64,000 nt of DNA from a virus, in IMG/VR virus record IMGVR_UViG_3300030102_006261, positions 78,161 through 142,160 of that record; one strand, given 5' to 3'. How positions within the stretch are numbered: position 1 is the stretch's first letter; each line of letters starts with the position of its first letter. The translations under genes were made by a program, and so were the position numbers. Shown here piece after piece: positions 2,876-63,427 of the stretch. Below the pieces are notes generated by a model that had not been told where the DNA came from, made no database searches, and saw nothing but the letters and a program-made list of their open reading frames with translations.

Positions 2876-2877
2876 AA

Positions 2878-5677: not shown

Positions 5678-5697
5678 ACAAAAGGATGTGTGTTGAT

Positions 5698-13036: not shown

Positions 13037-13494
13037 GCCCCAAATGGTTATTTTTTCCTGCACCAGCACCAGATCAATACATCTATACATTCAATACTGA
13101 TAGATCAGTTGTTCGCGGTTCCGCATCACCCACCGCCAGGAAGCAAACAGCAGTCGGTACAGAAAGTGGAACTCTAGTGGATCAATTCGCTCCATTTGCT
13201 ACCAACACTCAAATACAGTTGTCGATCCCAAACAGAATTACATTTAAAGTTCAGAGTAACGATACGTCTACGCCGGGGTTTGAAAACACCACGAACATAG
13301 CAAACAATATAACGGCTTGCACTCTTACTGTGGGAGGTAATACGTTTACTCCAGAGTCGATAACAATAGGCGGGAATAACACCAAACCACAATTTCAAAT
13401 GAACACCACTGATGGCTCCGCTAGTACATTTTATAGTGACAACAACCTTGATGACACTGACAACATAGATATTGTCATGACACTAACATTCTAA
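13033..13494 (+). CDS. Small beta-rich structural-like protein, unknown
   Basis: 153 residues, overlapping the preceding fibre gene by ATGA. Asn/Thr-rich with alternating polar/hydrophobic strands ('IQLSIPNRITFKVQS', 'ITACTLTVGGNTFTPESITIGG'), no Cys pairs and no signal peptide. It looks like a small fibre-tip or decoration protein. I recognise no family. Its position between fibre genes and a methyltransferase supports a virion role. Confidence 0.5.
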   Translation: MSPKWLFFPAPAPDQYIYTFNTDRSVVRGSASPTARKQTAVGTESGTLVDQFAPFATNTQIQLSIPNRITFKVQSNDTSTPGFENTTNIANNITACTLTVGGNTFTPESITIGGNNTKPQFQMNTTDGSASTFYSDNNLDDTDNIDIVMTLTF

Positions 13495-13505
13495 AGGTAG
13501 ATAAG

Positions 13506-36143: not shown

Positions 36144-36418
36144 TGTCTACCCCTTGCTGACATCTCTTCTAGCTCTTTTCTTATCCAGAGGAGATCGGTT
36201 TTTATTTCTGCTAGATCAGCCGCTAAGGTTATCCTAAAAGCTTCGGCGGTATCTAATCGTAGATCGAGTTGAGTTAATTCAGCCTCTATTGAATCAAGTC
36301 GCATCGAATAGTTAGCATCTTTTACCGCAACTTGCCAAAGCACGGAGGCTATGGTCAACCCCCACCCAATCAATACCGCATAGATTGTGATATTATTTTT
36401 TGCTGTTTCTTTTGTCAT
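36140..36418 (-). CDS. Membrane-anchored coiled-coil protein, inner-spanin-like candidate
   Basis: 92 residues: a single N-terminal membrane segment 'ITIYAVLIGWGLTIASVLWQV' (about 10-30) followed by a periplasm-sized coiled coil 'DSIEAELTQLDLRLDTAEAFRITLAADLAEIKTDLLWIRKELEEM'. This is the topology of an i-spanin, though no overlapping o-spanin frame is seen. Alternatively a simple membrane accessory protein. Overlaps the upstream gene by 26 nt. Confidence 0.45.
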   Translation of the reverse strand: MTKETAKNNITIYAVLIGWGLTIASVLWQVAVKDANYSMRLDSIEAELTQLDLRLDTAEAFRITLAADLAEIKTDLLWIRKELEEMSARGRQ

Positions 36419-44712: not shown

Positions 44713-44755
44713 TAGCGCGGTCCCAAGGTAGCGGGCGCAAAGCCCATCGGCGCTA
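44713..44755. other. GC-rich nested hairpin overlapping a stop codon
   Basis: TAGCGC (44713-44718)/GCGCTA (44750-44755) enclose GGGC (44733-44736)/GCCC (44742-44745). The outer arm includes the stop codon of the LysM gene. Much GC-richer than flanks. May stabilise the mRNA 3' end or belong to the adjacent terminator. Confidence 0.4.
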
Positions 44756-45595
44756 TTTCTGGTTTATATTTTCCATTGACTTTAGTCTTTTGATATTTTT
44801 GGGTGCCATCGGACCACTCGTGTATAATCTGTTGAGTTCACGATACATCTTTGAGTCAACGTATTCTGCTTTGGCTTTATCAACATCACCCGCTTCAATG
44901 GCAGCAGACATTTTTGGAAAGGGCTTCCCAGATTCTCTTGTTATTGCTGCCACTGTTTGTTGAACATCCTTTGGTTGCTTCGCGTAACTAGGAACAGCCT
45001 TTTCAATCTTGGGTAGATCTTTACTCAAGAAGTGGTGTCGCATCATGGATTTGTTAGTCTCTGGATCCAATCCCTGTCTGGTTCTAGGATCTAGGCTGAA
45101 GGCTTTATATGGATCCACACCGGGTTCCATCGCTGTTATTATGTCTTTGAAGTGTCGTGGTACTTCTTTTCCATAATTAAAAGATGCGAGACCACCCTGC
45201 TGTGTTGGAACTTTTTCCTTATGTGTGGGATCCTCCTCTGCATACATTTTTCCATCAGGGCTTACTGTGAACCCTTCGGAATCTTTTTGATCAGGTAGAA
45301 TATTCTTGTCGTAGTCTCGGGTGTCTCTTGCACGTTTCATCAAGGCAAACATCTCTGGGGACATTCTATTTTTTCTTGTCGTGGTGGTTGGGGTTTCCGA
45401 CTCTTCTTTTTCTTTCTTTGGTCCGGGTAGGTTTATTGATTGTCCGATTTGAAGTTTCGTAGCATCTACATTTGGATTTGCTTTGGTGATATCATCTATT
45501 GATATGCCAAGATCTTTGGCGATACCATAAAATGTATCACCCTTTTTTATTTCTCTTTGCTCTTGTTCTGCTAAAAAACCAATAAATGATAACAT
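44753..45595 (-). CDS. LysM protein with lysozyme (GH24)-like C-terminal half
   Basis: About 280 residues from ATG 45595; the upstream frame overlaps the next gene. N terminus 'MLSFIGFLAE' fits a T4-like head-targeting peptide (Leu-x-Glu). LysM at about 15-55: 'REIKKGDTFYGIAKDLGISIDDITKANPNVDATKLQIGQSINLP', a peptidoglycan-binding domain. From about 175, 'HHFLSKDLPKIEKAVPSYAKQPKDVQQTVAAITRESGKPFPKMSAAIEAGDVDKAKAEYVDSKMYRELN' follows the C-terminal lobe of T4-type lysozymes, but no clear catalytic Glu-8aa-Asp-5aa-Thr is seen. Either a divergent cell-wall enzyme or a wall-binding virion protein. Confidence 0.55.
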   Translation of the reverse strand: MLSFIGFLAEQEQREIKKGDTFYGIAKDLGISIDDITKANPNVDATKLQIGQSINLPGPKKEKEESETPTTTTRKNRMSPEMFALMKRARDTRDYDKNILPDQKDSEGFTVSPDGKMYAEEDPTHKEKVPTQQGGLASFNYGKEVPRHFKDIITAMEPGVDPYKAFSLDPRTRQGLDPETNKSMMRHHFLSKDLPKIEKAVPSYAKQPKDVQQTVAAITRESGKPFPKMSAAIEAGDVDKAKAEYVDSKMYRELNRLYTSGPMAPKNIKRLKSMENINQK

Positions 45596-46815: not shown

Positions 46816-49800
46816 TCAAACCCCATAACCACCCCCAGCTTGTTCTCCCCCAGCTTGGGTTCCGTCAGATGAATCCTGACATATACCACTTTCACAATAT
46901 GTGTCAGCCCCTTGGAATATTCCCCCACTGGCAACACATTCTTGCTCAGTTAGCCCGTCAGCACACTGAAGGGATCCATAGCAACATGCTCCGACTGGAT
47001 CTGGACAAACATTTTCAAGTTGATCATCTTCGTTTCTCTGACATATACAGCAAGGCTCATCCTCGTGCCAAGTCCAACCGGGGCGTTGCGTGCATTGAGC
47101 TTCTGTTTGTGCTTCAATGCATTCTTCATCACAACCGACTGGATCCCCACCACCACCTGCGGTCTGTGGTGTGGTCAGATTACCAACACCACCAGCGTCA
47201 TCACCACATGCTGCTGGTGGACAACATGCACCGGTCTTCTGATCACAACCACACACATCAAGGCTCCGCGCTAGATCCACGCAAACTTCGTCCCAACCAA
47301 TACCAAAGGCTTCACAGCATGTTGGATCAATGTCACATACGGCACTACAGCACACTTCATCACTACAGAATGGGGTTTCATGTGCCGTACAACAAAGACC
47401 AGTGTCGGGAGATCCACAATATAGATCTTTACAGAATGGTGATGGTGATCCTGCCATATATGTCTCAAAGGCTTGAGTGCAGTTTTCATCCCAACCACCA
47501 AATCTACCGTCATTGCAATAATAGTAGAGTGGATTGGAGGAGAATGCATCACAGCATCGCTCTGCTATTGATACTGTTTCACCATCATACGTGCTAGTTC
47601 CGGGTATTGTAACTTCTTGTTGTTGCTCACATCTATCTGCGTTAGCCTCGGCTTGAGAACAGAAACAAGTTGGCCTCACAGAGGAATCATAGTCTCCAAA
47701 CAGCGCACAGTCTGGTTTATCTATTTCAATGACGCAGGTGCCATATTCCTGAATCTCCCAATGTAATCTCGCATAAAATGCCTCTAAACAGTTTCTGAAA
47801 CCATGACATGAACATGCATCATTGTACGGACCATTTAACGAACCGGCACACCTACCGGTGATATTTGCTCCGGGGCAACCAGAGCCGTTACCTTCACCAT
47901 AGTCAATCCTGTTACTGGGTGCCACTTCGATTGACCATGGATCACTACATCCCTTGGTACCTACCCCATCCGGACTGTCGGGGAACGGGCTGTCAACCAC
48001 TGGATCGTATACCATAGTACCCGAAGTGCCTAATTCTGTGAAAACTGGCGCAGCATATGATCTAAGTGCAGCTCTACTGCCACCCTGGCTTACTAACTCA
48101 GGCTCATCACGAAGAGTGAGATCTATAGGTCTGATGTCATAGAGGATCATGTTCGGTTCATATTTGTCTAAAAATCCGGATTCATTTTCACTATCGTCAA
48201 CACATGGTTCAGAGGTAGAGTCACAACCTCCTACGTCCCATATATAATATCCGTAGTCGTTGTAACGCATTGCACTTGGTCGGGCGGCATGGGTCATGGC
48301 GACTGTCAAATTAAGCTGATCACAGATTCCTGTATTCTCATCGAGATACCGAATAAATTTGGGACTTGTTAGTTCGTATCTACCACCAAGAGGCCAATCA
48401 AGGGTGGAAAATCCGGCGCGAGATGAATCTTCATGAATTCTAAATTTCATGCTACCCATCTTGAGTGTATTCATTGCTGTATTCATACTCGCGTGGTCTT
48501 CAAAAACAAACCCAACTCTACCTAGAACGGTTTCATGTCTAAACTCACCATCAGCTAAATCGGTTCTGTCTTTTTCCTGATTAAATTCCGGAGTGTCTAG
48601 AATAGGATTCTTTGAGGCCTCATACCTGTTATTGATTCCAATAATATCCTCTGATCTAAATGTAACATCGAACGGGGGTCCGTAATTACTGAAGAAATCA
48701 CTGTTAGCGTATCTATAGTTTTCAATTGGATCATCTGGATCCACATCTTCGTAACTAGAAAAGTTCCATTTTGCAAAATTATCATACCTAAGTCTTGGCA
48801 TTCCTGCGACAATTCCTCTTGCCGGATTTACTGGTGTTGGACACACCTCTCCGGGCTGTACAACACATCCCTCGATCTCTTCTTCATCAGAGCACTGAAG
48901 ACAAATGACATCCTCTATCGGCAGCTCGGTGCCCTGTGCTCCTTCGGTATTCCAGTGAATATATGCCGTGTCTAAAACGTATGCGTCCCCTCTTACCTTA
49001 TGGTTTACATACTTTGGAGTATAATCACCGTTATCTGGATCAGCGTACTCAACTTGAGCATTGGCAGGTCTTATGCCAGGTTCAAGGAATCTACCAGAGC
49101 AGAACCATCCACCAAATGGTATGATTGCACCAACTCGTCTACCCTCGTTTTCTCCATCCTGTAGACTGAAGAACCTATACGCACCCGCTGCCTCTTGGAA
49201 TCCATACTGGTTCGGTCCTTCCGTGTGTGTTGACTTAGGAATTGGTCTGTTCTCATCTCCGACTACAATTTCTGGTGGACTCCATCCGGGATACTGTGGC
49301 ACACCTCCCACTACTAAATTGTCTGATACGTGAAGATCTAGATCCTTAAATGTTTTCCAACCGATCGGTGTTCCCGTGATTAAACGTTGCTCATTTTCAC
49401 CAAACCACTTAGATCCTTGACGAATGTGTGGCTCTGTTGGATTGAGAATATTGAAGAATCTAACTTCTTTGAACTTGGGAAGTTCAGTGTTCAGCCAGTG
49501 GTTAGTGGGTATGTCTGTGGCGATTCCAGTCTCTTCAAATTCCTCGTTTGATCTGTAGGTAGAGCAGTACATTTCAACGTCTTCCGCCGTTTCTGGATTG
49601 CCGGGGTTGAATTCGTCTCCAGCATTTGCCGGATCAAGAAACGCAGTGGGATATCCCGTGTTGGAATTTCCACCATCAAGTTCATCTAAGAATAGAGTGC
49701 TTCCCTCCTCATTAGTCTTTACTCTCTTGAGAGTCTTAATTTCAAGTCTTGTGGTAACCACATCAGCACCTTGGTCATAACAGTCATGTGGCGTTGGTGG

Positions 49801-52800
49801 TCCATCCAGTGCGAATCCACATCTTCTCCATTGACCACCAGGCACATCTGTGTCTAAACTATATTCTGACGCACCCTTTCTTGCATATTCATATGGACAG
49901 TGATATGGGAGTTTACACACACCAGACACAAACTCTGGTACTCTTTGAACTCCACCGAAAGGATCTTGAATCAAGGTTGAACCGTGACCAAAAACAAGTG
50001 GTGATGGTTGTATATTGGTTTCTGTTCTGTTAAGAGGGCAGTAGTAGGCGCAATTATCGCAAGCATCTCCACCATCCTTAAAGCACCATTCGTCCATCTG
50101 TGCCTCACCCCACTCATAATCAATGATCCACGGGACGTACCACCCATGTGGTGTTCTAGCTCTATCTTGATCTGGACCGTTAAATATAACACCGTATTCT
50201 ACGATACCACCACCATAGACATTCTGACATGATCGAGGCTCGGACTCACAAGGTCCCGTGTAACATCGTCCACATTTGGGCTCCGGTGAATTACAATTGC
50301 TGTTATCAGCGGCACAGGGTCCACAAGCACAGGGATCTTCCCCACAATTATGTGAGTTTTCCCTAATTTTTCCCCCTATCCAGATCTTATCAAACTCTGG
50401 ACGAAGGTTGTTGGGTCTTGGCAATAGGGAATTATACATTGTTTCAGACCACTCAATGCAACCAACTATGTCTATTGCACCACCATCTCCTCCTGTTATT
50501 ATCTCTCGTCTGTCAGGATTGTCCGTTGGTCCGGGTGTTGGTCCTATTGGGGCGTCTCCCGGTGGTGGATCAGATCCGGGAGTGCCGGGTGGTGCATATC
50601 CACCAAACTCAGCTGGCTCTTTTACTCTAGTATCCAAATCACTAGCTACACAATTTAGATCAAATGGGAATAGAAGAGTCTCTTGATAATATGTTCTCCA
50701 AAACTCATCAATTGGAACTATTCTCTGACAGTCAATATTCTCGCCAGGGCATGTTCCCTGCTGCCATACCGCTTTTTCTAGAATTCTAACCCCATAATTA
50801 TTACTGGTCAAGATGACATCATTACATCCACCATATTGACTAAGACCATTTGCACAACCAGCTGGTCCTATACCGATCTGTGGTAAGTCATACCATTGAT
50901 CACATGGAGCACTAATTTCTGGTGGATTGCAAGGATCTGAGCTAGACGCTGTACACCGTTCTCCGGCGCAGTCTCTGAACGGATGATTCCATGATGTGAG
51001 TCTTGAGTTTTTATCGCTTGCCCTTGGTAAGAATTGTGGAATTCCTGTAAATGTATCCGGACTCCAGTTAAATCTTACTATTTGTGTTCCAAAGGGGAAT
51101 GCGACTGAGGGGAACGATCCGCCTGGGTGGGACCAACAAGGGGCATTTTCGAAACCAAAAAAGTCTAGTAATACATAAGGTCCACCTCTTGATGAACTCA
51201 GAAGATCCCATGGTTGAATTGATCCAACGAAACCAAATACACTGGGGCGCACAATTGGGACAAATGACCAACCACCGGGCTTTGCGTGAAGGTATATTGG
51301 ATTGTTAGCAAGATAAATTTTGTAGTATCTAATGAGATTTTTTTGCTCTTCGATCTCATTCTCCAGAAACTCCACTCTTGCATCATATTCTTCTTCACTC
51401 TCGAAATCACTGGGATCTAGATTGTTAAGTTCAGCCCTTATGTCATACTCATCGTTTTCGTTTGGATATGGTAACCATCTGGGATCATTACTCGCCGCCC
51501 TAGTTCCGGGTATTGCGTTACCAAAATTGGGATAGGCTTGATTGGCGTTCAGGTTACCAGCAACTCCCCATCCATTTGTTTCAACCACTTCTCTATCGGT
51601 GGCCTGATCTCTGAATGGATTGCGGTTATTTTTAGCAGTGGGATTATAAACGGGCATTTCACCAGAAAGTCTTGTCCCGTTAAAACGTTTCATATTAATT
51701 AGACTGGGAGTCAGAGGCTGAATACCAGAACAAGTTCCCCACTTACCGCTTAGTGACACAGGGATTCTTTTTCCATTTTCCTCAACGATCCTCAAGTCAG
51801 CGGTATTATAATAATCACCAGAACCTTGGAAATCAAAATTAGCCTGCGCCATGGCATTTTCATATATGTCTCTGGTAATGAAGTGCAAACCAGTCTTATC
51901 GGTGGGATCGAAATCAATGTCATCCTCATCTTTAATGAAAATAACCGATCTTTTTCTAACTGGAAGTAGCTCACTTTTTGCTCCGTCACCAGATATTGGT
52001 GGATCAGTTAGAGATGGTGGATTTTTCCAATCACCACCCTCTTCTTCACACTGCTCTGGACTATCCACGGTCAAATCACATCTAGGCACTTGATCTATCT
52101 CTGAGGGTTTGAAGCAACATGCACCCCCCCACATTCCACTTGCGATCCGACCTCCAGTCTTGTTCATACCAGCGTATCTACCATCATTCGCCGTCGATCC
52201 CTCTGATCCAGCTCCTAAGAATTGATCCCATGTTCTATAGAGGTACCTCTGATCATCTCTCCAGTCCCTCATCTCTAGGATTCCAGCGTCCCAGAGCTTA
52301 TCTCCAAAATCTTGTATAAAGCTACCGATTGCTCGCAGAGCTGGGAGTCTCTCAAGCTCACCACTATTATCACCATAAACGTAGTTTAGGTGATCTGGAT
52401 TTCTGATGTTACGTATGTCGCCCATGCTGAGTTTACCCTCTAGCATTAGACCCCAAAGTTCAAAATCAAAAATGGGCACACCAGAGCACTTGTATACCCA
52501 GTACTTTGGAGTTGTACAATACTTAACAAAGTCTTTATATGGACAAGTGGGATCTTCGTTATTTGCCAGACAACTCTGACAACCGGCTGCTGATGCCTGC
52601 ATCTTATCATTTACGACAGGTGGGTAGAAGGTTTGTGGTCTGAGATTCCTTAGATCCTCTTCATCTCGGAAGCAAGATGCAAATGGATCATCAGGGCAAG
52701 TCATGAATGGTCCAGTAAGTGATTCTGTCCAGAAATCGCCTCGGACGAATACTCTCATTCTGTGCATGGTTCCAACCAAACAATCGTGTAGGTTTGCTTT

Positions 52801-55800
52801 CTGATTTCTAAATGGACTCCAGAAAATAGGCTTACCATCTGCGTATGACATAATATCTAAAAGCCATCTACTATCTTGAGTCGCTGCCATGGTGTTAAGC
52901 TGCCAGTCACTCAATCCACTCTTTCCATTAGTCTGGTATGCGGTATTCGATACATTACTCTGATATGGAGATTTGGGAACGAACGGAACATTCCATTGTC
53001 TTGGACCGATCTCAGAACATCCACCTTGTCTTGCAGTTAGTGAGTGTATTCCATTTCCGGCCCACTGATGTCTCCACACATCTAATGCTCCGCCTGCGCC
53101 GGACACATAAACGACATTACCGCCCGCGTTAAATAACAATTCAGCGATAGTCCGCTCGCCCGATATTGCACTTCCCTCTAGGGGACTTGGCCAATATCCA
53201 GAAAGTAACGCTGGAGTATGGTGTGGTGTGGTTTGTGGAGTGTCGCCCGACACCGCTAAGGTTGAATTTGCTAAATTACTGACAGTGATATCATCAAGAC
53301 TATCTCCAATCCCCGCATTTCCCCATGGATTTGGTGGTGAGTATCCACCTGCTGACCAGACACTTCTTGGATCCATTCCCTGTCTCATTGAGGGTTCGCA
53401 CACTAGATTTACATTTGAAATGCCAGCAACACAGTTATCGTCTTCACCATCTGTGGATGGTGCAGTGATTGGATTAAAAATTGTCTCTTCCTCTGTGGTA
53501 TTTGGCACGTCAGTAAATCCATATACTACTGGATTACCTCTGTATCTGTTAGTTAATTGCTGTCCCGGATATGTAAATGGAACAGGATTTTTTACGCTAG
53601 GTACATATCTGTCGTTAGGAAATCCTGCTGGGACCTGAGGATCTTCTCCGCCGATACCATGGACACCTGCGGGTGTTGCAAGGGCTTGAAATGTGTCTGA
53701 ATCCCTTCCCCAGTCAAAGTACCAATAATCTTTGATGTGATGGAAAAGAGTATATACCGGACTCGAAAAAGGAACTTGAGTCTTTTTATTGATCGTGTAA
53801 AAAGCCGCGCCTCCGTCACCCGAGACTGAGGGTGGGTCAACGGTGCCTGCACCAACATTTCCAGTAATATTGCTGGTGATTGTGTTCGTAATTGAGCTGG
53901 TGATTGTGCTCGTGACATTGACAGGGTCTATGGTATTTGTACTAGTGCTAGTTGAACTGTTAGTTTGACTGTTAGTGCTAGTATTGGTTGAACTGTTGGT
54001 GTTGGTATTGGTGGAACTGTTGGTGCTAGTATTGGTTGAACTGCTGGTGTTGATGCTTCCAATATTTGACGTTATCGTATTTGTGATTGTTGATATAATG
54101 TCACCAACATCGCCACCGTTTACTGGTGGATCACCGTCACAGTCAACTATTTGCCAGTTTCCCTCAGTGGGAACCTGATCACCGGGGCAATAAGCACATT
54201 GAGTCCAAATAGTTTCATCCACATCATCCGGCTGCGCTCGACGTAAACAATCGGGTTCCATCACGACACTTTCACAGTTTGTCGTGCCATCCTCATAAAT
54301 CGTACAACAGGATCCAGTTGGCACACATCCCACCGGGCGACCTAAATCGTCTACAAAGGGCAAATCATTACAAGTCGTGGGCCACACGTTCCATCTTCCA
54401 CCATTAGCTATGCAATCAGCTTCAAGTATTCCCTCTCGGCAATCACCATTACAGTAACAACAAGATCCTGTAATCGGACATGGATCACCATTTGGAGGGC
54501 AACCAAGACCACCAGTTTGGTGGGCACAAATACCACCGCTGTCTGAACAGGCTGTCATTGTTAAATCTTCTCTACAAGTGCCATCAGGTAAACAACATTT
54601 AGGGCATACAACTATATCACTACATGCGCCACAAGATCTAGAGCTGGGATGGAGGGCGCCTGGACATGATGTTGTCGATGTATCGATGCAGTCGCATATG
54701 GCGGTATCGGAGTCGTAATTCCAATCGCAACAGATTCTAAATGGACATCCGCTGGCGGCATTAAGTGGTTCACATGGATCTTGTCCACCAGGCACAATTA
54801 CAGGAGGAATGTAGAATTTACAACATTCCTCGACCGAGGCACTAGCTGGACATGTAACAGTTACTGGACCACAGAGGTAATCGGATGAGCAGCAACACTG
54901 CACAGTTTTCTCCGGAGGACCACCACCACCACTACCCACAGCGGCTGCTCTTTCCTCTACAGATTCACCATCATCCTCCTCCTCAATCTCCACATCTAGA
55001 CTAGAATCTCTGGGGAGCCCGGGTGGAACTTTGAGATTATTTTCTTTCTCAAACTCTCCGGGTAGTTCAGTTAATTCTGGGAAAGGAAAGTCAGGTCCGG
55101 CAACTTGTTTTCTATTTGAGAATTTGAATCGATCTTTGTCGGTGGCGTTTCTCTTGATTTCAAGACCATATTTTCTTTTTAACCCCGCCTCGGTCTTGTC
55201 TAATGGCTGCTCTAATTCTTCATCCTCATCCTCAGTTGGATCACTGTACGAGATATTCTGATTTACTTTATCAAAGTGATTCGGATCAAGTATTTCTATT
55301 GTCTCTCCAGTTTCCGGTGGTGGGTTTTCTTGAAGAGCCAAACGATTAATGAACTGCTCTGATCCAATTACGTTAATTGGTATTGTTGGATCTGGATTGC
55401 CCTCATAACCCCACAGTGTGATCCTTACGTTTTCATTGATTCTTATCTCATCAACAACTCTTTGCGTTCTCGTAGACTGTTCCCCAGCATACACAACCAT
55501 CACACCGTGAGTCTTTTTGTTACCACCAAACGCTTTTGTTCTGGCAGTAAAGGTTACGGGGCTAATTTCTTTTGATCTGTATTGTTTGTTGCTCGATTCG
55601 ATATAGTTCATATCGACATACTCAGTGTCTAATATAAACTTATCTCTATCCTGGCGAGACTGAAATATAAAAATGAGTGAGTTATTTTGACTTAGGTAAT
55701 CTAATACGGCGTAGTTCGGGCTTAGCCCCATGTGTTTTTGGTTGTTCCGGTTTACCGTAAAGTATGGTACCTTTACGGATGGAGTCCCCGGAAGACCTCT

Positions 55801-56472
55801 ACCACTAATGCGAAGTTTTCTCTTCTTCTTTCGCATATTGAAGACATGAAATTTATTACTTTCCTTATATTTCTCTAGTCGCTTGATGTAGTTGTTCTTG
55901 AATATTTTATCATTGTAGACAGGAAAGTCAATGACCGGGTTATCAGCATCAGATGGATTTAGGGATATTATGCGATGGAAGTTGTATGTTGACACAGGAG
56001 ATTGGAGATTGTATCCGGACTCTTTGCTTCTGAATCCGTGAATGTCAAACATTTCACTTCGCATACCACCATAATACAAATCGAGGGCCGCGAGGTGATC
56101 GCCGCTAATTCTTGGTGCATCAGAAACAGAGTCTTCTTCGGGTGCAACAAGCCCCATCGCACCACCGGGTGTGATTGTTTCAGTTCCCCATATTGAGTAG
56201 GGAAAGTTTGAATTTTTCTGAACAAGCACGTTTGTGCATAACATGCACGAATTACCGTTGTTCACACCGTAGTCTTGCGGATTTGCTAAATTTTCATTGT
56301 TGTACATGGCTCGGTAGCCAAGACTCATCGAAGGAACTCCACTACCAAACTGATTTGGGTTGTGGGGTACATCACCTTCACGGGTAAAGAATTTGTCACC
56401 ACCAAGACAGGATACCTGTAACCCACCCGGTCCTGTTCCATCTTTACAGCAACAATTTCTTTGTGTTGACAT
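46816..56472 (-). CDS. Giant Cys-rich structural/adhesin-like protein (3,218 aa)
   Basis: The largest gene here. N-terminal 'RNCCCKDGTGPGG'. Residues about 530-770 are Cys-rich ('GSCCYCNGDCREGILEADCIANGGRW', 'GSCCTIYEDGTTNCESVVMEPDC'). About 785-870 is a Ser/Thr/Asn tract ('STNTSTNSSTNTNTN'), probably a flexible or glycosylated linker. Later stretches are beta/loop-like. Residues about 2835-3218 hold more Cys modules, including 'DPTCCEAFGIGWDEVCVDLA' and 'GACCYGSLQCADGLTEQECVASGG', patterns I associate with Phycisphaerae surface proteins. Ends 'GGEQAGGGYGV'. No signal peptide. Likely a virion adhesin or host-range protein (inference). Behind late-like TATACATA. Confidence 0.6.
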   Translation of the reverse strand: MSTQRNCCCKDGTGPGGLQVSCLGGDKFFTREGDVPHNPNQFGSGVPSMSLGYRAMYNNENLANPQDYGVNNGNSCMLCTNVLVQKNSNFPYSIWGTETITPGGAMGLVAPEEDSVSDAPRISGDHLAALDLYYGGMRSEMFDIHGFRSKESGYNLQSPVSTYNFHRIISLNPSDADNPVIDFPVYNDKIFKNNYIKRLEKYKESNKFHVFNMRKKKRKLRISGRGLPGTPSVKVPYFTVNRNNQKHMGLSPNYAVLDYLSQNNSLIFIFQSRQDRDKFILDTEYVDMNYIESSNKQYRSKEISPVTFTARTKAFGGNKKTHGVMVVYAGEQSTRTQRVVDEIRINENVRITLWGYEGNPDPTIPINVIGSEQFINRLALQENPPPETGETIEILDPNHFDKVNQNISYSDPTEDEDEELEQPLDKTEAGLKRKYGLEIKRNATDKDRFKFSNRKQVAGPDFPFPELTELPGEFEKENNLKVPPGLPRDSSLDVEIEEEDDGESVEERAAAVGSGGGGPPEKTVQCCCSSDYLCGPVTVTCPASASVEECCKFYIPPVIVPGGQDPCEPLNAASGCPFRICCDWNYDSDTAICDCIDTSTTSCPGALHPSSRSCGACSDIVVCPKCCLPDGTCREDLTMTACSDSGGICAHQTGGLGCPPNGDPCPITGSCCYCNGDCREGILEADCIANGGRWNVWPTTCNDLPFVDDLGRPVGCVPTGSCCTIYEDGTTNCESVVMEPDCLRRAQPDDVDETIWTQCAYCPGDQVPTEGNWQIVDCDGDPPVNGGDVGDIISTITNTITSNIGSINTSSSTNTSTNSSTNTNTNSSTNTSTNSQTNSSTSTSTNTIDPVNVTSTITSSITNTITSNITGNVGAGTVDPPSVSGDGGAAFYTINKKTQVPFSSPVYTLFHHIKDYWYFDWGRDSDTFQALATPAGVHGIGGEDPQVPAGFPNDRYVPSVKNPVPFTYPGQQLTNRYRGNPVVYGFTDVPNTTEEETIFNPITAPSTDGEDDNCVAGISNVNLVCEPSMRQGMDPRSVWSAGGYSPPNPWGNAGIGDSLDDITVSNLANSTLAVSGDTPQTTPHHTPALLSGYWPSPLEGSAISGERTIAELLFNAGGNVVYVSGAGGALDVWRHQWAGNGIHSLTARQGGCSEIGPRQWNVPFVPKSPYQSNVSNTAYQTNGKSGLSDWQLNTMAATQDSRWLLDIMSYADGKPIFWSPFRNQKANLHDCLVGTMHRMRVFVRGDFWTESLTGPFMTCPDDPFASCFRDEEDLRNLRPQTFYPPVVNDKMQASAAGCQSCLANNEDPTCPYKDFVKYCTTPKYWVYKCSGVPIFDFELWGLMLEGKLSMGDIRNIRNPDHLNYVYGDNSGELERLPALRAIGSFIQDFGDKLWDAGILEMRDWRDDQRYLYRTWDQFLGAGSEGSTANDGRYAGMNKTGGRIASGMWGGACCFKPSEIDQVPRCDLTVDSPEQCEEEGGDWKNPPSLTDPPISGDGAKSELLPVRKRSVIFIKDEDDIDFDPTDKTGLHFITRDIYENAMAQANFDFQGSGDYYNTADLRIVEENGKRIPVSLSGKWGTCSGIQPLTPSLINMKRFNGTRLSGEMPVYNPTAKNNRNPFRDQATDREVVETNGWGVAGNLNANQAYPNFGNAIPGTRAASNDPRWLPYPNENDEYDIRAELNNLDPSDFESEEEYDARVEFLENEIEEQKNLIRYYKIYLANNPIYLHAKPGGWSFVPIVRPSVFGFVGSIQPWDLLSSSRGGPYVLLDFFGFENAPCWSHPGGSFPSVAFPFGTQIVRFNWSPDTFTGIPQFLPRASDKNSRLTSWNHPFRDCAGERCTASSSDPCNPPEISAPCDQWYDLPQIGIGPAGCANGLSQYGGCNDVILTSNNYGVRILEKAVWQQGTCPGENIDCQRIVPIDEFWRTYYQETLLFPFDLNCVASDLDTRVKEPAEFGGYAPPGTPGSDPPPGDAPIGPTPGPTDNPDRREIITGGDGGAIDIVGCIEWSETMYNSLLPRPNNLRPEFDKIWIGGKIRENSHNCGEDPCACGPCAADNSNCNSPEPKCGRCYTGPCESEPRSCQNVYGGGIVEYGVIFNGPDQDRARTPHGWYVPWIIDYEWGEAQMDEWCFKDGGDACDNCAYYCPLNRTETNIQPSPLVFGHGSTLIQDPFGGVQRVPEFVSGVCKLPYHCPYEYARKGASEYSLDTDVPGGQWRRCGFALDGPPTPHDCYDQGADVVTTRLEIKTLKRVKTNEEGSTLFLDELDGGNSNTGYPTAFLDPANAGDEFNPGNPETAEDVEMYCSTYRSNEEFEETGIATDIPTNHWLNTELPKFKEVRFFNILNPTEPHIRQGSKWFGENEQRLITGTPIGWKTFKDLDLHVSDNLVVGGVPQYPGWSPPEIVVGDENRPIPKSTHTEGPNQYGFQEAAGAYRFFSLQDGENEGRRVGAIIPFGGWFCSGRFLEPGIRPANAQVEYADPDNGDYTPKYVNHKVRGDAYVLDTAYIHWNTEGAQGTELPIEDVICLQCSDEEEIEGCVVQPGEVCPTPVNPARGIVAGMPRLRYDNFAKWNFSSYEDVDPDDPIENYRYANSDFFSNYGPPFDVTFRSEDIIGINNRYEASKNPILDTPEFNQEKDRTDLADGEFRHETVLGRVGFVFEDHASMNTAMNTLKMGSMKFRIHEDSSRAGFSTLDWPLGGRYELTSPKFIRYLDENTGICDQLNLTVAMTHAARPSAMRYNDYGYYIWDVGGCDSTSEPCVDDSENESGFLDKYEPNMILYDIRPIDLTLRDEPELVSQGGSRAALRSYAAPVFTELGTSGTMVYDPVVDSPFPDSPDGVGTKGCSDPWSIEVAPSNRIDYGEGNGSGCPGANITGRCAGSLNGPYNDACSCHGFRNCLEAFYARLHWEIQEYGTCVIEIDKPDCALFGDYDSSVRPTCFCSQAEANADRCEQQQEVTIPGTSTYDGETVSIAERCCDAFSSNPLYYYCNDGRFGGWDENCTQAFETYMAGSPSPFCKDLYCGSPDTGLCCTAHETPFCSDEVCCSAVCDIDPTCCEAFGIGWDEVCVDLARSLDVCGCDQKTGACCPPAACGDDAGGVGNLTTPQTAGGGGDPVGCDEECIEAQTEAQCTQRPGWTWHEDEPCCICQRNEDDQLENVCPDPVGACCYGSLQCADGLTEQECVASGGIFQGADTYCESGICQDSSDGTQAGGEQAGGGYGV
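53865..54110 (-). repeat. Degenerate Asn/Ser/Thr-encoding repeats inside the giant gene
   Basis: Short units encoding (S/T)(S/T)TNTST recur for about 80 codons with AAC-AGT/ACT variation on the - strand. A low-complexity linker prone to copy-number change. Confidence 0.65.
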
Positions 56473-56833: not shown

Positions 56834-57733
56834 TTACTTGTATTGTTCACGTAACATTGTAACAAATTCTGACGGAGATGTGGGGAAATAATTTTCGCTT
56901 TGCATAAATTCACTTCTGGATTGACCGCCAGCCTCGGCTCTTCTTGCATCTCGTCTGGCCCTTCTTTCCTGTCGTCGTCTCTGCGCTATCTCACGATTGA
57001 TGGCATATCGTTCCTCTCTACTTCCAGCCGCTGATCTTCTCCCCCGAAGAGCCGCAATATCATCTGCAAATTGATCCCTGGCTCCACCAAAGCGATATTC
57101 ATCGCTTACTTTCTTCATCTTATCTCTGTATTCCTGCGCCCTACTTCTGTATGTCGCAAGATCGATGGTAGCTTCACCCGAATCAGCCAGATCCTTATTA
57201 ATCTTATCCATTTCTCTAGTTTCTCTGTCCGCCTTGATACGATCCATCTGAGCCTGGTTATTTGCGGAGATCTGTTTGTCAATTTCACCTCGTAGCTCCT
57301 CATCACTCATAGCCTCAAACTCTGCTCGTCTACCTTGATTTGCGAGAATATCCTGAATAGCTTTTTCTCGATCAGGATTACTCACTCCTCGCCTGTCTTG
57401 CGCGATGTCAGTGTAGGTGCTTCCACGGGTGCCTGTCTTTGATGGGTGAGTGGCATCTCCGTACCTTGGAGCGCGAGCCTGTCTCAAGGCATCTTGGACC
57501 TGTGCCCTGCGAATCTCCCTCTGTGCTCCGGGTGCAGTGGGATCAAAGTCTGGATTAGACCGAACACCCGATTCGTTTGGTTTAGAATCGAACTGTGATT
57601 GGGGAATTCCTCGCATCCCAGATATCCTGGCCACCTCTTTTGCGATATTGGCGTTCATTTTTTGCATTTCGGCTTCAACTCTTGCTTGCTCTGCGGCAGA
57701 TAGCTCAGTTTGCTCATTGACATGATTCTTCAT
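56834..57733 (-). CDS. Arg-rich helical late protein, unknown
   Basis: 299 residues from ATG 57733, chosen for GGAG 6 nt upstream. N terminus 'MKNHVNEQTELSAAEQARVEAEMQKMNANIAKEVARI'; mostly charged helices with many Arg-Asp/Glu pairs ('RRRQERRARRDARRAEAGGQSRSEF'). Ends 'YFPTSPSEFVTMLREQYK'. Composition like internal or core proteins. Behind late-like TATAGATA. Confidence 0.5.
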   Translation of the reverse strand: MKNHVNEQTELSAAEQARVEAEMQKMNANIAKEVARISGMRGIPQSQFDSKPNESGVRSNPDFDPTAPGAQREIRRAQVQDALRQARAPRYGDATHPSKTGTRGSTYTDIAQDRRGVSNPDREKAIQDILANQGRRAEFEAMSDEELRGEIDKQISANNQAQMDRIKADRETREMDKINKDLADSGEATIDLATYRSRAQEYRDKMKKVSDEYRFGGARDQFADDIAALRGRRSAAGSREERYAINREIAQRRRQERRARRDARRAEAGGQSRSEFMQSENYFPTSPSEFVTMLREQYK

Positions 57734-57762
57734 GGGATTCTCCAAATGAAATTTGACTACAT

Positions 57763-57772
57763 TATCTATAAT
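57763..57772. promoter_or_regulatory. Divergent promoter core: late-like TATAGATA (-) overlapping TATAAT (+)
   Basis: TATCTATAAT reads TATAAT on + (57767-57772, toward ATG 57798) and TATAGATA on - (57770-57763, toward ATG 57733). It sits in the 64-bp gap between divergent genes. No good -35 for the + side. Confidence 0.4.
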
Positions 57773-57797
57773 AGCTACATATTGATGGAGAAACATC

Positions 57798-58934
57798 ATG
57801 CGCGGTTTTACAAATTACATTCAATATATGACAGAGGACGTTCAGACTACAGGTCACCTCACACACCTGTCTGATCTGGTTCTCAGTGGCAACCATGAAA
57901 GTGCCTTTGCTCATGTTGACGCCACAACCAAGAGGTTCAACAATTCGGTCACAAAGGGGCATGATCTGTCCCTGAAAGCAGATGGCGGCATGAGTGTCAT
58001 CGTCGGTAGAGATCGAGCCGGTGATCATTTCGTATCCTACAAGTCAGGCAAAGAACGACACTACAGGCACGACTCAATTGCAAAAACAGGCAAACAACAC
58101 ATGATTGATACGCTGTCTCCACTCCTGTCCGGAGCATCGAAGATGAAGAGTCTCAAGCCAGGCACAGCATTCCAAGCCGACGTTCTGCATACTCCAGAGC
58201 ATTCAGACTCGACACATACGCCTAACACAATCTCTTACAAAACATCTCATCCCGGCAAACTATCCATTGCAGTCCACGGGCAGTTCGCTGTTGCAGGAGA
58301 CAGCATCACAAGGACATCCAACGTTCCCGATCTGTCCCAACTCAAAGGAGAGGGGGTTCACACACCGAACCTACATGTCCACAAGAAGATGAACCTGTCC
58401 CTCTCGGATGACAGACACCACGATATCAATCAACACATGAGAGATGCTCGACGTTCGATGGGTTCTGAAGGCACAGCCGAGTTCGCTCAGAGTCTGCCAC
58501 AGAACAAGAAGTTCTCTGCTATGATGCAGGCTTACTCGAATCACTCAGCAAGAACAGACGGCAAGGTATCGGTGGACGGTCTTCGCACTTTCATGAAAGG
58601 GCATGTGGAGAAGAGGAAGGTGTCGGATGGACTCAAGGCAAAGGAACTGGACAGCCATACAAGTCTCATCAACGACAACGAGAATCACTTCACCAACATG
58701 TTGAGTGCCCATAACAGTCTCACCTCGGTCACCAATGAAGTAACGAATGCCCTGCGTAACAATGCCAGTAACTTCTCCCTGACACCCAAAGCCAACAAGC
58801 ATTACTCTGAACATGAGGGGCTTGTCTCGTCTCTCGAAGGGCACACACCAGTCAAGTTCGTTCGCCGTGGTGAGCAGGGATTCTCTCGGGCGAATAAAGC
58901 CTCGGGTGAGGAGCGGTTCGGTTCCACACCCTGA
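57798..58934 (+). CDS. DUF6267-like protein with KxDG (nucleotidyltransferase/ligase-fold) motif
   Basis: 378 residues, GGAG upstream. 'MRGFTNYIQYMTEDVQTTGHLTHLSDLVLSGNHESAFAHVDATTKRF' then 'GHDLSLKADGGMSVIVGRDRAGDHFVSYKSG' matches a marine T4-like family that normally reads 'HLEHLED...VTVKWDGAPAI..G.D...F.V.TK'. The K-x-D-G (about residue 55) is the adenylation lysine motif of the covalent nucleotidyltransferase superfamily (DNA/RNA ligases). Later parts are His/Ser/Asn-rich. The N terminus resembles head-targeting peptides (MTE). GC-rich unlike upstream genes. True activity unknown. Confidence 0.6.
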   Translation: MRGFTNYIQYMTEDVQTTGHLTHLSDLVLSGNHESAFAHVDATTKRFNNSVTKGHDLSLKADGGMSVIVGRDRAGDHFVSYKSGKERHYRHDSIAKTGKQHMIDTLSPLLSGASKMKSLKPGTAFQADVLHTPEHSDSTHTPNTISYKTSHPGKLSIAVHGQFAVAGDSITRTSNVPDLSQLKGEGVHTPNLHVHKKMNLSLSDDRHHDINQHMRDARRSMGSEGTAEFAQSLPQNKKFSAMMQAYSNHSARTDGKVSVDGLRTFMKGHVEKRKVSDGLKAKELDSHTSLINDNENHFTNMLSAHNSLTSVTNEVTNALRNNASNFSLTPKANKHYSEHEGLVSSLEGHTPVKFVRRGEQGFSRANKASGEERFGSTP

Positions 58935-59134: not shown

Positions 59135-59231
59135 CCTTCTTGCTCCAGGTCTTGGAGCGGAGCGATTGCCGCCCCGCCCCATCCTTGTTCCACTGAGATC
59201 CACGCCTCGACTTGGGTGCCTTCCGTTTCAT
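59076..59231 (-). CDS. Possible 51-aa basic protein, ATGA-coupled to the VWA gene
   Basis: ATG at 59231 overlaps the stop of the VWA gene. The product 'MKRKAPKSRRGSQWNKDGAG...' is strongly Lys/Arg-rich. It overlaps the next small gene in another frame, so one of the two, or both, may be translated. Supported only by coupling and composition. Confidence 0.35.
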   Translation of the reverse strand: MKRKAPKSRRGSQWNKDGAGRQSLRSKTWSKKDDKDAKRNRRDWKQGRSGD

Positions 59232-61417
59232 GCGATGATGTCGATGAAGCGGTTGAGCATGGCACGAGAGGTGCCAGTCTGCTTCATAGCCTTGACGAAG
59301 CTGTTGCGGATCTTGGTGATGGTCACACCGTCCTCGTCAGCACGACCGATGCTGTCGAAGGCATCTGCGTTCTGAACCGTGTTCTTGCCGAACATGATGA
59401 ACCGCTCGTCGAAGCCCTGCTTGCCATCATCTGTGGCAACAGTCCACTTCTCCTTCTTGAACTGAGCCACCTGACGCTCTCGTTCGAGGGTGTTCTCGCT
59501 GAGGTCAACGTACCAGGCTCGGTTGATGTTCTTCTTCTCGGTCAGGAAGAACTGGATCAGCCGAGTCCCGCTCTTGTGGCGGAGGACATCCAGAGCCTGC
59601 TCGGTGGTACGAGTCGAGCTTCTTCTGGACTGGCGGAAGTATCGGAAGCCGTCTCGGATGGTATGACAATCAGCCGGCTGACTGGTGGTGGCACCATCGG
59701 AGATGATCAGGGTGTTCATCACTTCGATGCCGTTCTCTGCACGATACTTGGGCAACCAGTTGGTGGCAGTCCAGATGGCATCGTCGAGAGGAGTAGCACC
59801 AAGACGGTCGTTGTACCGGGTGGTGAGGTTGGATCTCCACCCATAGGTCTCGGACATGATCGCGACTCGCTTGCAGGCATCGAAGAACCGCTGCTTGGGC
59901 ATACGAGACGAGAGGTAGTTCCGCATGATCAGACCGGTACCGCAGATCTTCTCACCAGTGTCGGCATCAGTGAAGTGAATGCCGCTGTCTCTGCCGTCCC
60001 AGTACGACTGTCTGCGTTCCTGATCCACGTTCGAGAAGGAGTACATCTCGAAGGGGATGTTGATCATGCGGCAGAACATCGCCATCTGAATAGCCTGTCG
60101 GATGGTATCCTTCATCACCTGCTCCATGCTCTGGGACCAGTCAACGAGGATCAGCAGCCCATGGTTCTTACCGTCTGGCATGATGGTAGTCTTGCGGAAG
60201 ATGTCCTCGGACCACTTGTAGTTGACCATCTTCTGCATGTCCAGAACACCAGTCTTGGCAACAGTAGCACGGCGGAACGCAACGGCTTTCTGCTTGCGGA
60301 GGAACTCCTGAGCCATGGCACGGCAAGTCTTGCGAGACTCGTCAAGGAAGCGGTCAACCTCGTCGAGAATACCGATAGGCGTGTTGTCATCTCTGTAGTA
60401 GCCATCGACGCTGCCACCTTCATCCTGCTTGCCGTTGTAGAGAGTGGTCCAGTCCTGCATGACTTCCTCCGGCTTGATCGTCAGAGGTCCACAGAACGAA
60501 TCGGTCATCCCATTGTAACGATCGCGGAGGAGGTCCACGTTCTGCTCGAACTTCTGCTGAGTCTCGGACCGCTCGATCTTGTTGGACTGATCAGGCGCGG
60601 TGGGAGTGGACTGGTCGTCACCGATGGTGGGTGACTGCGGCGCATCATCGTCGGTGACATCACCACCACCAGAGGCAGACTCATCGTCACCCTTGTCAGC
60701 CATGCTGTCACCAGAGCCATCAGTGTCACCAGTCTCGACATCATCCATGTCCATGGTGGTCGAGTCATCGCTCTCGTCTGCCGACTGCTCGTCCTCCTGT
60801 TCGTCCTCAGGCAGGGAACCAACGTAGTCGAGGATGGCATCGGCACAGTCGAGGATGTCATCCCATGACTCAGCGGCATCGATCTGATCGATGAACGGCT
60901 GCTCGATGGTGGCAAAGTCGATGCAAGCACCAACGGTGCCAGCCTTGTAGTGCAGGTTGATGCGGTCGATGAACTGCATGGCAGCAACCTTGTCATCCTG
61001 AAGGGCATTCTCACCGAAGAAGCCACGCTCGATCAGATCGTTGTATGCCGTGATGAAGTCACGGCGAAGACCGGGGAACTTCTGCTTCATGAGCCGCTCG
61101 ATACGAGCATCCTCGACCACATTGATGTAGTCCTTGGCAACCATGACATCAACGCTGTGCTTGGCTGCGAGATCCTGAACGGCATCGATGTCAGCAGGAG
61201 TGTACAGGGCATGTCCAACCTCATGTGCCACGAGCATGTCGTAGAGGCTGTCGCTCATCTCGTTCCAGCGAGGCAGGGTGAGTACACGGCTCTGGGTGTT
61301 GAACGATGCGGTGTGGGCTTTGCCATCGTGGAGAACGTGAATGTTCTCGGTGGCAAGCATCTTTGCGAATCGGTCCTTGGCGGTGACGTTGACGGTGTTG
61401 TTGCTGTTCTTGCTCAT
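59228..61417 (-). CDS. CobT-like VWA protein with HExxH metallopeptidase motif
   Basis: 729 residues. N-terminal 'MLVAHEVGHALYTP' (His65-Glu66...His69) with 'VVEDARIERLM' (about 101-110) as the third-ligand region forms a zinc-peptidase-like site. A long acidic Asp/Ser-rich linker (about 205-280) follows, as in CobT. The C-terminal von Willebrand A domain has 'LLILVDWSQSM' (MIDAS DxSxS, about 420) and later 'NTLIISDGATT'. Pairs with the AAA+ ATPase encoded at 61982-63427 as in CobS/CobT or MoxR/VWA. Might assist metal insertion or remodel a target protein. Predicted leaderless mRNA. Confidence 0.8.
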   Translation of the reverse strand: MSKNSNNTVNVTAKDRFAKMLATENIHVLHDGKAHTASFNTQSRVLTLPRWNEMSDSLYDMLVAHEVGHALYTPADIDAVQDLAAKHSVDVMVAKDYINVVEDARIERLMKQKFPGLRRDFITAYNDLIERGFFGENALQDDKVAAMQFIDRINLHYKAGTVGACIDFATIEQPFIDQIDAAESWDDILDCADAILDYVGSLPEDEQEDEQSADESDDSTTMDMDDVETGDTDGSGDSMADKGDDESASGGGDVTDDDAPQSPTIGDDQSTPTAPDQSNKIERSETQQKFEQNVDLLRDRYNGMTDSFCGPLTIKPEEVMQDWTTLYNGKQDEGGSVDGYYRDDNTPIGILDEVDRFLDESRKTCRAMAQEFLRKQKAVAFRRATVAKTGVLDMQKMVNYKWSEDIFRKTTIMPDGKNHGLLILVDWSQSMEQVMKDTIRQAIQMAMFCRMINIPFEMYSFSNVDQERRQSYWDGRDSGIHFTDADTGEKICGTGLIMRNYLSSRMPKQRFFDACKRVAIMSETYGWRSNLTTRYNDRLGATPLDDAIWTATNWLPKYRAENGIEVMNTLIISDGATTSQPADCHTIRDGFRYFRQSRRSSTRTTEQALDVLRHKSGTRLIQFFLTEKKNINRAWYVDLSENTLERERQVAQFKKEKWTVATDDGKQGFDERFIMFGKNTVQNADAFDSIGRADEDGVTITKIRNSFVKAMKQTGTSRAMLNRFIDIIA

Positions 61418-61423
61418 GGGTGT

Positions 61424-61451
61424 ATTTTACCACATCTCAGGGTGTACACAA
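61424..61451 (-). promoter_or_regulatory. Sigma70-like promoter of VWA gene, leaderless geometry
   Basis: TTGTGT (61451-61446), 16 nt, TAAAAT (61429-61424), 6 nt, ATG 61417. The -35 overlaps a partial dyad (GTGTA...TACAC, about 61442-61462), a candidate operator. Confidence 0.6.
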
Positions 61452-61482
61452 GGGGTATACACTGTATTCGACGAAAATAGTG

Positions 61483-61519
61483 AAAAAAAAAGTGCCTCTC
61501 GAATCGCTCCGAGAGGCAC
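61483..61519 (-). terminator. Strong intrinsic terminator (- strand)
   Basis: Stem GTGCCTCTCG/CGAGAGGCAC type (61492-61519) followed on the - strand by nine T (61491-61483). Separates the AAA+ / small-gene transcript from the VWA promoter. Confidence 0.85.
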
Positions 61520-61528
61520 CTATGAACA

Positions 61529-61633
61529 CTACACCAAATCACCATTTAGGTCTTCTTCTCCCAGAAGCTCTAATGCCTCTTCTTCAGAGAGCATCACGGG
61601 CATCCAGTCGAGCATGTCTTCAGACGTATTCAT
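61529..61633 (-). CDS. Small acidic protein (34 aa)
   Basis: ATG 61633 with GAGG 7 nt upstream, overlapping the end of the upstream gene. Product 'MNTSEDMLDWMPVMLSEEEA' plus 14 residues, acidic and helical. Followed directly by the terminator. Supported by SD, position and absence of another explanation. Confidence 0.4.
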   Translation of the reverse strand: MNTSEDMLDWMPVMLSEEEALELLGEEDLNGDLV

Positions 61634-61841
61634 CTGTCTGCCTCACTTCCACCACACGGTCGTTCTCAATCTCGTCGAGGAAGCCATCGTCGGAGTAGGC
61701 ATACGGATCTGCCTCCACCCAGATGTTGTCCTCGATCCAGGCTTCGATCTCGTCTTCGGGAATGTCATCCGGCACCTCAATCGGCACGGTGGCGGTATGA
61801 TTCCGAATCTCGGTCCATGTCATTTCGGCTTCGTACATCAT
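61620..61841 (-). CDS. Small acidic protein (73 aa), unknown
   Basis: Starts at ATG 61841 with GGAGG upstream, ATGA-coupled to a tiny gene. 'IPEDEIEAWIEDNIWVEADPYAYSDDGFLDEIENDRVVEV' is acidic, with Trp residues. No family recognised. Confidence 0.55.
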   Translation of the reverse strand: MMYEAEMTWTEIRNHTATVPIEVPDDIPEDEIEAWIEDNIWVEADPYAYSDDGFLDEIENDRVVEVRQTDEYV

Positions 61842-61963
61842 CGGTCGTCCTCCATATCGTAAAGGTCAATGTAATCGGCTTTGCTCATCTCATCACCACT
61901 CGTCTCTGCGGCACACTCGCGCCAGTAGGGGTGATCGTACTCGTAGTCAGGGTCAGGTCTCAT
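61838..61963 (-). CDS. Small acidic protein (41 aa)
   Basis: ATG 61963 with AAAGGA upstream; the stop overlaps the next start as ATGA. Product starts 'MRPDPDYEYDHPYWRECAAE' and ends '...YIDLYDMEDDR'. Acidic, Tyr-rich. Lies 18 nt after the AAA+ gene in the same operon. Confidence 0.5.
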   Translation of the reverse strand: MRPDPDYEYDHPYWRECAAETSGDEMSKADYIDLYDMEDDR

Positions 61964-61981
61964 CGTGTTCGGTCCTTTCGA

Positions 61982-63427
61982 TTAGGAATTCATTGCCATG
62001 TTGAGAATGTTCTCGCCCGTGGAGAGCTTGCGAGGATTGTAGGTCACCACTCGATCCCATCGCCCCATCTCTCGATTCTTGTGCATGTCAGAAGCCACTT
62101 CGACGGGGAGGTACCAGTACTTCCCTTCGGCATCCCACTTGGCTTCGGGGAACTCTCGTCGGAAGTCATCCTTCTGCTTGTAGGGAACATCGAGGATCAC
62201 ACGGTCACAGTTCTCCCAGCCAGCCGGGTTGTCGTACCATGCTCCCTCCTCATCAGCAGGCATGTGTACATCGGCATCCACCTTGGTGTAGAGGTTGGAG
62301 AAGGCTTCACGGGTGGACTCATCGAAACGAGCCAGAACCAGATCCACCGACTTCATGCGGTCACCGAACATGGCGAACGCCTTGACTGCATCCTCCAGGC
62401 GACGAGTCGAGATCACCTTCTCGACGGCACCCTCGGTGAAGGCTTTGCGAGTCACCTCTGCCCATGTCACCAGATTGTCGAGGAAGCCATCATCAGAGGC
62501 ACCATACTTCTCAGCCTTCTTCTTGAGGATCTTCAACTCGGTCTTCTTGGGTGCATACGCCTGATCGTAGGTGAATGCGAACCGATCAAGAAAGGCTTCG
62601 TTCTGAATGTTGGTATGGGTGAACATGCCATCATCGGAACCTTCACCCTTGGTGTTGGCAGTAGCGAACACGGTGAAGCCAGACGCAGGAGAGATCCACT
62701 CACCGGTCTTCTTGAGGAAGACACCCTTGCCCTCCAGCACAGGCTGAAGACACATGATGGGAGCCAAACCCAGATCAACCTCATCGAGGAGAAGGACAGC
62801 ACCACGCTTCATGGCTTCAACCACAGGTCCGTAGACGAACTTGGTCTCACCATTGACGAGACGGAAGCCACCCAGCAGATCATCCTCATCGGTCTGAGCC
62901 GTGATGTTGACGCGGAACATCTCACGCTTGAGCTTGGCACAACACTGCTCGATCATCGTGGTCTTGCCATTACCAGACAGTCCAGTGACGTAGACATTGG
63001 CATTGATGCCACTACGGAGAATGGACTCGACATCCTTGTGATGCCCCCATGCCACGTAGTCACGCATGACAGTAGGCACCATGGTATCAGAAACCAGAGA
63101 AAGGGCATAGCTGTTCATGTCAACAGCCTCCTGTGGAGTAGGGGTAGCAGCCACTGGAGCAGGAGCAACAGGGGAAGCCACAGCGGAAGATGAAGTGAAG
63201 GAGGAAGCCTCCGCCACGTAGTAGGTACCACGATCTGGTCCCTTACGAGAGGCATCCTGAACGATCCATGCAGGTGGATACTTCATGCCAAGGTCATTGG
63301 CAGTAGCGAGGAGTTGACCTCGGCTGTACCATACCTGACCAGTCATGTCAGTCTGCTCGGTGCCATGGGCACGGATGAGTTCACGGATGAAAGCCTCTTG
63401 CTTGGTTGTCAGTGTGGTGTTGTTCAT
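61982..63427 (-). CDS. CobS/MoxR-like AAA+ ATPase with C-terminal DUF5710-like domain
   Basis: 481 residues. N-terminal helical part, Pro/Ala linker (about 75-100), then AAA+: Walker A 'GLSGNGKT' (about 149-156), 'QTDEDDLLGGFRLVNGETKFVYGPVVEAM' (MoxR-type insert), Walker B 'AVLLLDEVDLG' (about 210), sensor 'VFATANT'. The C-terminal 'VILDVPYKQKDDFRREFPEAKWDAEGKYWYLP' matches the DUF5710 pattern (VPYxxKD...AKWD...WYxP), a small domain often attached to DNA-metabolism proteins. Likely partner of the VWA protein. Leaderless promoter. Confidence 0.85.
   Translation of the reverse strand: MNNTTLTTKQEAFIRELIRAHGTEQTDMTGQVWYSRGQLLATANDLGMKYPPAWIVQDASRKGPDRGTYYVAEASSFTSSSAVASPVAPAPVAATPTPQEAVDMNSYALSLVSDTMVPTVMRDYVAWGHHKDVESILRSGINANVYVTGLSGNGKTTMIEQCCAKLKREMFRVNITAQTDEDDLLGGFRLVNGETKFVYGPVVEAMKRGAVLLLDEVDLGLAPIMCLQPVLEGKGVFLKKTGEWISPASGFTVFATANTKGEGSDDGMFTHTNIQNEAFLDRFAFTYDQAYAPKKTELKILKKKAEKYGASDDGFLDNLVTWAEVTRKAFTEGAVEKVISTRRLEDAVKAFAMFGDRMKSVDLVLARFDESTREAFSNLYTKVDADVHMPADEEGAWYDNPAGWENCDRVILDVPYKQKDDFRREFPEAKWDAEGKYWYLPVEVASDMHKNREMGRWDRVVTYNPRKLSTGENILNMAMNS

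Follow-up and report, generated by a model that had tools for sequence, protein, structure and literature searches.

In phage T4, a capsid-targeting sequence of about 10 residues is conserved in IPII and IPIII (PMC9958956), and the NAD-using Alt is packaged by the same phage (PMC9503650). Among cyanophages, mass spectrometry has detected the NMNAT-like proteins S-CREM2 gp154 and S-SCSM1 gp91 in virions (PMC10665884 Table 3, PMC9602691), with the authors' caution that such virion-detected proteins might be purification carry-over (PMC10665884, PMC9602691). The gene family of these two proteins adjoins or is fused with another one in related phages, DUF6267 (PF19782, phrog_455), which is nearly universal in the sequenced, very abundant marine T4-like phages, yet has no assigned function. 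No paper naming DUF6267 was found in an open-access search. The first-pass annotation of the gene described here had noted that its family has no known activity, which is supported. A total of 470 phage records contain DUF6267, almost all from marine T4-like phages, and the hosts are mostly Synechococcus and Prochlorococcus, although phages of Pelagibacter, Methylophilales, Vibrio, and others are also represented. A plasmid search for relatives returned none, while a genome collection gave 37 matches, mostly in metagenome-assembled genomes. As a T4-type major head protein gene was also present in all four tested assemblies with a match, these matches look like phage contigs.

A divergent DUF6267 member and its surroundings

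The window, i.e., the whole stretch of 64,000 nucleotides analyzed here, belongs to a virus record of 142,160 bases (G000) encoding homologues of T4-type gp21, gp22, and gp23, with a major head protein nearest to those of marine T4-like phages (53–54% identity). The record carries a single copy of the gene in question, with GGAG as a ribosome site ahead of its ATG (Table 1). A twin locus (L002) encodes a protein 92% identical, and the substitution rates between the two (pS 0.43, pN 0.045, dN/dS 0.07) identify the open reading frame as a coding, selected protein. In a frame search, PF19782 gave the window protein 79.3 bits against a curated cut-off of 27, whereas a Pfam hmmscan of the protein did not list DUF6267 and the twin (G001) had no PF19782 match in the same frame search. 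Because of this failure of the twin, we built our own profile HMM leaving out the clade of the window protein, and it assigned 112 bits (E 3e-32) to the window protein and 106 bits to the twin, whereas none of 200 shuffled versions of the window protein scored above 7.6 bits. In addition, phrog_455 matches the protein (E 4e-9), and tblastn retrieves cyanophage members that are themselves DUF6267. Membership in DUF6267 is practically certain, and the protein is a divergent member of DUF6267/phrog_455. It displays full-length homology to this family, which is also cyanophage T4-GC 71, and has all invariant residues in common with it, but is only 20–28% identical, carries KADGGMS where the family has KWDGAPA or KYDGSPS, and, unlike the family, is encoded by a gene standing alone, divergent, and away from any NMNAT-like gene.

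Table 1 Coordinates of the DUF6267 gene and its features in the window
Feature	Position	Strand	Remarks
DUF6267 coding sequence, 378 aa	57798–58934	+	PF19782 79 bits; own HMM 112 bits; dN/dS 0.07
N-terminal 13 codons MRGFTNYIQYMTE, putative degenerate capsid-targeting-like tag	57798–57836	+	Our reading; residues 1–18 predicted disordered
Motif I, K60-A-D62-G63	57975–57986	+	K, D, and G invariant; in the model, a beta strand stops at K60
K82, after the FVSY strand	58041–58043	+	Invariant in 162/162, outside the selection filter
Motif III-like, Q126-A-D128	58173–58181	+	Q and D in 162/162, outside the filter; beta strand 123–131
Helical insertion, residues 204–321, between motifs III and IV	58407–58760	+	AlphaFold2 model; same in L042
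Motif IV, E340-G-L-V343	58815–58826	+	Invariant; strand 341–346
Motif V-like, K353-F-V-R-R357	58854–58868	+	K kept by all complete relatives, V and R by almost all

The gene is the only plus-strand one among minus-strand genes, and the long genes on either side (56834–57799 and 59228–61417) both run on the minus strand, agreeing with the divergent transcription reported in the first-pass annotation. Its placement in a different base-composition block holds only in part, as GC increases gradually toward the right, from about 44% to about 55%, and the gene, with 46–51% GC, lies in the transition. For this reason, the composition argument adds little, and base composition is rejected as a sign of foreign origin. 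A T4-type late promoter was not found before the gene, either as TATAAATA or as the near variants tried, while CATAAATA precedes the DUF6267 ATG in the twin L002. In L002, a plus-strand ORF of 1109 residues (2582–5911) lies between a gene encoding 331 residues and DUF6267 and is missing from the window, suggesting that the spot gains or loses genes. To the left, a minus-strand ORF of 3218 residues (46816–56472) is cysteine-rich with an NTSST-type low-complexity stretch, and possibly encodes a large fiber or surface protein. To the right, the minus-strand block 59228–63427, with about 55% GC more GC-rich than the remainder of the window's right half, encodes a peptidase-like phrog_459 protein and an AAA/MoxR-like ATPase, the CobT/CobS-like pair of T4-like phages.

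Ligase-type motifs and the predicted fold

The covalent nucleotidyltransferase signature KxDG, proposed from the window alone, corresponds to KADG at residues 60–63 and is kept in relatives. All 162 relatives compared are identical at K60, D62, G63, G70, F78, K82, Q126, D128, Y147, H160, and N248 as well as at E340, G341, V343, K353, V355, and R357. These relatives were selected by a filter demanding K.DG, EG.V, and K.V.R, making those columns partly circular, but the columns of K82, Q126, D128, H160, and N248 are free of the filter and hence independent. Furthermore, loci failing the filter all keep KxDG, the C-terminally complete ones among them keep EG.V, and in the last motif of the latter, only V or R varies in most, while K is kept. 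Of the KxK of motif V, the first lysine is invariant and the second is replaced in the window protein (KFVRR). The motifs match, in their order and spacing, those numbered I, III, IV, and V in ligase/capping nucleotidyltransferases, with K60 as the predicted nucleotidylated lysine.

T4 Rnl1 (PF09511) is a candidate for a protein working in a similar manner. It displays the same motif order, its KxDGS...KSKG resembles the KxDG...GTKG of DUF6267, and it likewise has EGYV...K. By eye, we take K82 of the window protein to be comparable in position to K119 of T4 Rnl1. Motif IV, EGLV, aligns with EGYV of both T4 Rnl1 and Rnl2 in a profile comparison of weak score. However, DUF6267 differs from T4 Rnl1 in giving no HMM match, in a motif V without KxK, in its C terminus, and in the long helical stretch inserted between motifs III and IV. 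Comparing the DUF6267 profile with those of the Rnl1 and Rnl2 families gave nothing significant; the alignment of EGFV...K with EGYV...K of Rnl1 had a non-significant score that was still above that of Rnl1 versus Rnl2, and since these two scored no better, the comparison lacks power here. A PDB sequence search with the DUF6267 family profile found no relative.

An AlphaFold2 model of the window protein built with 43 relatives reached a pLDDT of 77 and a pTM of 0.81, with residues 1–18 disordered (pLDDT < 50). DNA or RNA ligases made up 43 of its 50 best PDB fold matches, of which the best had an E of 0.013 and none reached E <= 0.001, with TM-scores of about 0.2 and high rmsd. In BFVD, the first named matches outside the family are phage RNA ligases (E 3.4e-4 with a probability of 0.99, then 0.92), and other ligases and some unnamed proteins are also among the matches. 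The model of family member L042 is of higher confidence (pLDDT 92, pTM 0.90), residues 1–12 being its only disordered part, but its PDB matches are weaker (E 0.4 or worse), perhaps due to the long helical insertion. Ligases account for eight of its 50 best matches and have the highest probabilities among the matches listed. The predicted structure thus appears ligase-like, and the lack of such a fold, which would have spoken against the first-pass annotation, was not observed, although no PDB match is individually significant. A ligase-superfamily fold is quite probable for the window protein, and it is likely, if less so, to be an active nucleotidyltransferase.

Alternatively, the window protein could be a degenerate and inactive member of the family, with no role but that of an internal or structural protein of the head. 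In its clade, the APA/SPS following KxDG in the family has been lost and is GMS here, with M in place of the conserved proline, while HFVSYK stands for FFVGTK, T replaces the conserved K at position 312, and the N-terminal tag is degenerate. Yet, all catalytic-type residues are kept and purifying selection is strong, and we regard such decay as improbable.

A capsid-targeting-like tag and an NMNAT-like partner

DUF6267 relatives start with MxxFxxF/YL/IxE, fitting the same pattern as MKTYQEFIAE of T4 IPII/IPIII, e.g., MITFQTFIAEA in L042, although the bodies of IPII and IPIII are unrelated to DUF6267. A strict pattern modelled on the capsid-targeting sequence of IPII/IPIII is matched by 110 of the 162 relatives, extending the head-targeting-like N terminus first noticed in the window protein to a tag conserved family-wide. 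In 65 kb of T4, this pattern picks out IPII, IPIII, and a single further short ORF, while in G000 it finds five ORFs versus 0.26 expected from shuffles. The tag is also borne by 13/90 immediate neighbors of DUF6267 versus 6/166 other ORFs of the same loci (p 0.002). The window protein itself fails the strict pattern, as its spacing is three residues longer and M instead of L/I precedes TE, and MRGFTNYIQYMTE fits only with shifted spacing. Accordingly, the MTE end that had been pointed out within its first 13 residues can be read as a degenerate form of a real family tag, but its spacing is unusual. A homologue of the prohead protease gp21 is encoded by G000 (phrog_207, 9.4e-80). It seems likely that the tag directs packaging in the DUF6267 members bearing it, whereas for the window protein, judged by its degenerate sequence, the chances of being packaged in the head appear about even.

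Other frames also bear the tag. In the window, a LysM/endolysin-like protein on the minus strand (44753–45595) has an internal start, MLSFIGFLAE, that is capsid-targeting-like, and four further tagged ORFs are found in G000 outside the window (2988–4061, 6058–6342, 7187–7594, and 12430–13560). In T4 (L196, 16211–16441), an open frame of 76 residues at the 3' end of uvsW starts with MLLEFKQFLYEAS and matches the capsid-targeting pattern, possibly by chance or possibly as a small internal protein.

The commonest recognizable neighbor or fusion partner of DUF6267 is an NMNAT-like nucleotidyltransferase. Of 52 representative loci, six have the two fused and 12 have them side by side, while in 31 the sequence available, often with short flanks, showed no NMNAT-like gene. 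The tag is also present in six NMNAT-like proteins encoded close to DUF6267 genes. The same holds for the virion-detected S-CREM2 gp154 (MKNFSSFLTE) and S-SCSM1 gp91 (MKSFLQFLKE), which share the N-terminal tag with DUF6267 but are HxGH-type nucleotidyltransferases of unrelated fold. The DUF6267 proteins of these two phages, S-CREM2 gp87 and S-SCSM1 gp257, have no tag and are not among the virion proteins detected in the two proteomes. This rules out that DUF6267 itself had already been seen in these virion proteomes, and so far virions have yielded no DUF6267 protein. Detection of the tagged NMNAT-like proteins and not of the untagged DUF6267 proteins fits the notion that the tag is what matters.

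Candidate roles of DUF6267

Considering the conserved ligase-like features together with the family tag, a ligase-like enzyme may be delivered into the host by these phages when they inject their DNA. Here, Lys60 would attack ATP or NAD+ to form lysyl-AMP, D128 and E340 would help bind metal, K353 and R357 would contact the nucleotide, and the helical insertion after motif III would shape the substrate site. For the majority of DUF6267 members, and probably for the window protein too, the tag would carry the enzyme to the prohead core, where a gp21-type protease would presumably cut after the tag glutamate, E13 in the window protein. Finally, the enzyme would enter the host with the DNA and modify or seal nucleic-acid ends. 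Taken as a whole, our best explanation, to which we give an even chance, is a ligase-fold nucleotidyltransferase that is packaged in the head for the larger part of the family and probably for the window protein as well. As for the reaction, end sealing is a working hypothesis somewhat below even odds, and NAD+ is a possible donor given the NMNAT-like partner. More tentatively still, marine T4-like phages could package and inject DUF6267, often with or fused to the NMNAT-like enzyme, as a two-enzyme kit for nucleotide- or NAD-linked end repair or modification. The interpretation given in the first-pass annotation is partly supported, and is better grounded than the window alone allowed, mainly by the family-wide tag and the virion-borne, tagged NMNAT-like partner, while its packaged end-sealing enzyme stays a hypothesis.

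Neither PF01068 (DNA_ligase_A_M) nor PF09511 (RNA_lig_T4_1) was found in G000 and six marine relatives, while both are present in T4, and PF09414 (T4 Rnl2-type RNA ligase) was absent in five of the six relatives. The window protein has no HMM match to PF09414, nor to PF01068 (ATP-dependent DNA ligase), which matches nothing in G000. With T4-type DNA ligase and Rnl1 lacking from G000 and the six relatives, it is plausible that DUF6267 serves as a ligase, whether within the cell or during injection. One could speculate that DUF6267 is a divergent polynucleotide ligase standing in for the replicative or repair ligase that marine T4-like phages seem to lack, and that it acts intracellularly and not in the virion, as the cyanophage gene comes after gp43, uvsX, gp41, and mazG and short cyanophage forms have no tag. 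However, the tag is present in most non-cyanophage members, the chain of the window protein ends 21 residues after motif V with no C-terminal OB domain, and the phage could use a host ligase, leaving this explanation rather unlikely. The ligase-fold reading offers a direct assay and could account for the handling of broken ends in phages lacking T4-type DNA ligase and Rnl1. The tag, in turn, provides a sequence rule by which injected cargo proteins of marine phages can be sought.

The frequent fusions of DUF6267 to an NMNAT-like protein, or its location beside one, the presence of NMNAT-like proteins in virions (PMC10665884, PMC9602691), and the packaging of NAD-using Alt by T4 (PMC9503650) would also suit a protein- or RNA-modifying nucleotidyltransferase that acts with the NMNAT-like partner on host targets, in a role like that of Alt and without ligation, e.g., by AMPylation or by NAD capping or decapping of RNA. 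Yet, the fold matches are ligases, RNA ligases included, no target is known, and the NMNAT-like gene is not seen in the majority of the representative loci counted above, and we consider such a role slightly less likely still than the intracellular ligase. In the window, a minus-strand ORF of 977 residues (36393–39326) has TATAAATA 29 bases upstream of its ATG and an N terminus (VGRYHGLTKAHH) that weakly matches CTP_transf_like (15 bits, below the Pfam cut-off). This N-terminal part is the only NMNAT-like candidate in the window and might be a partner of DUF6267.
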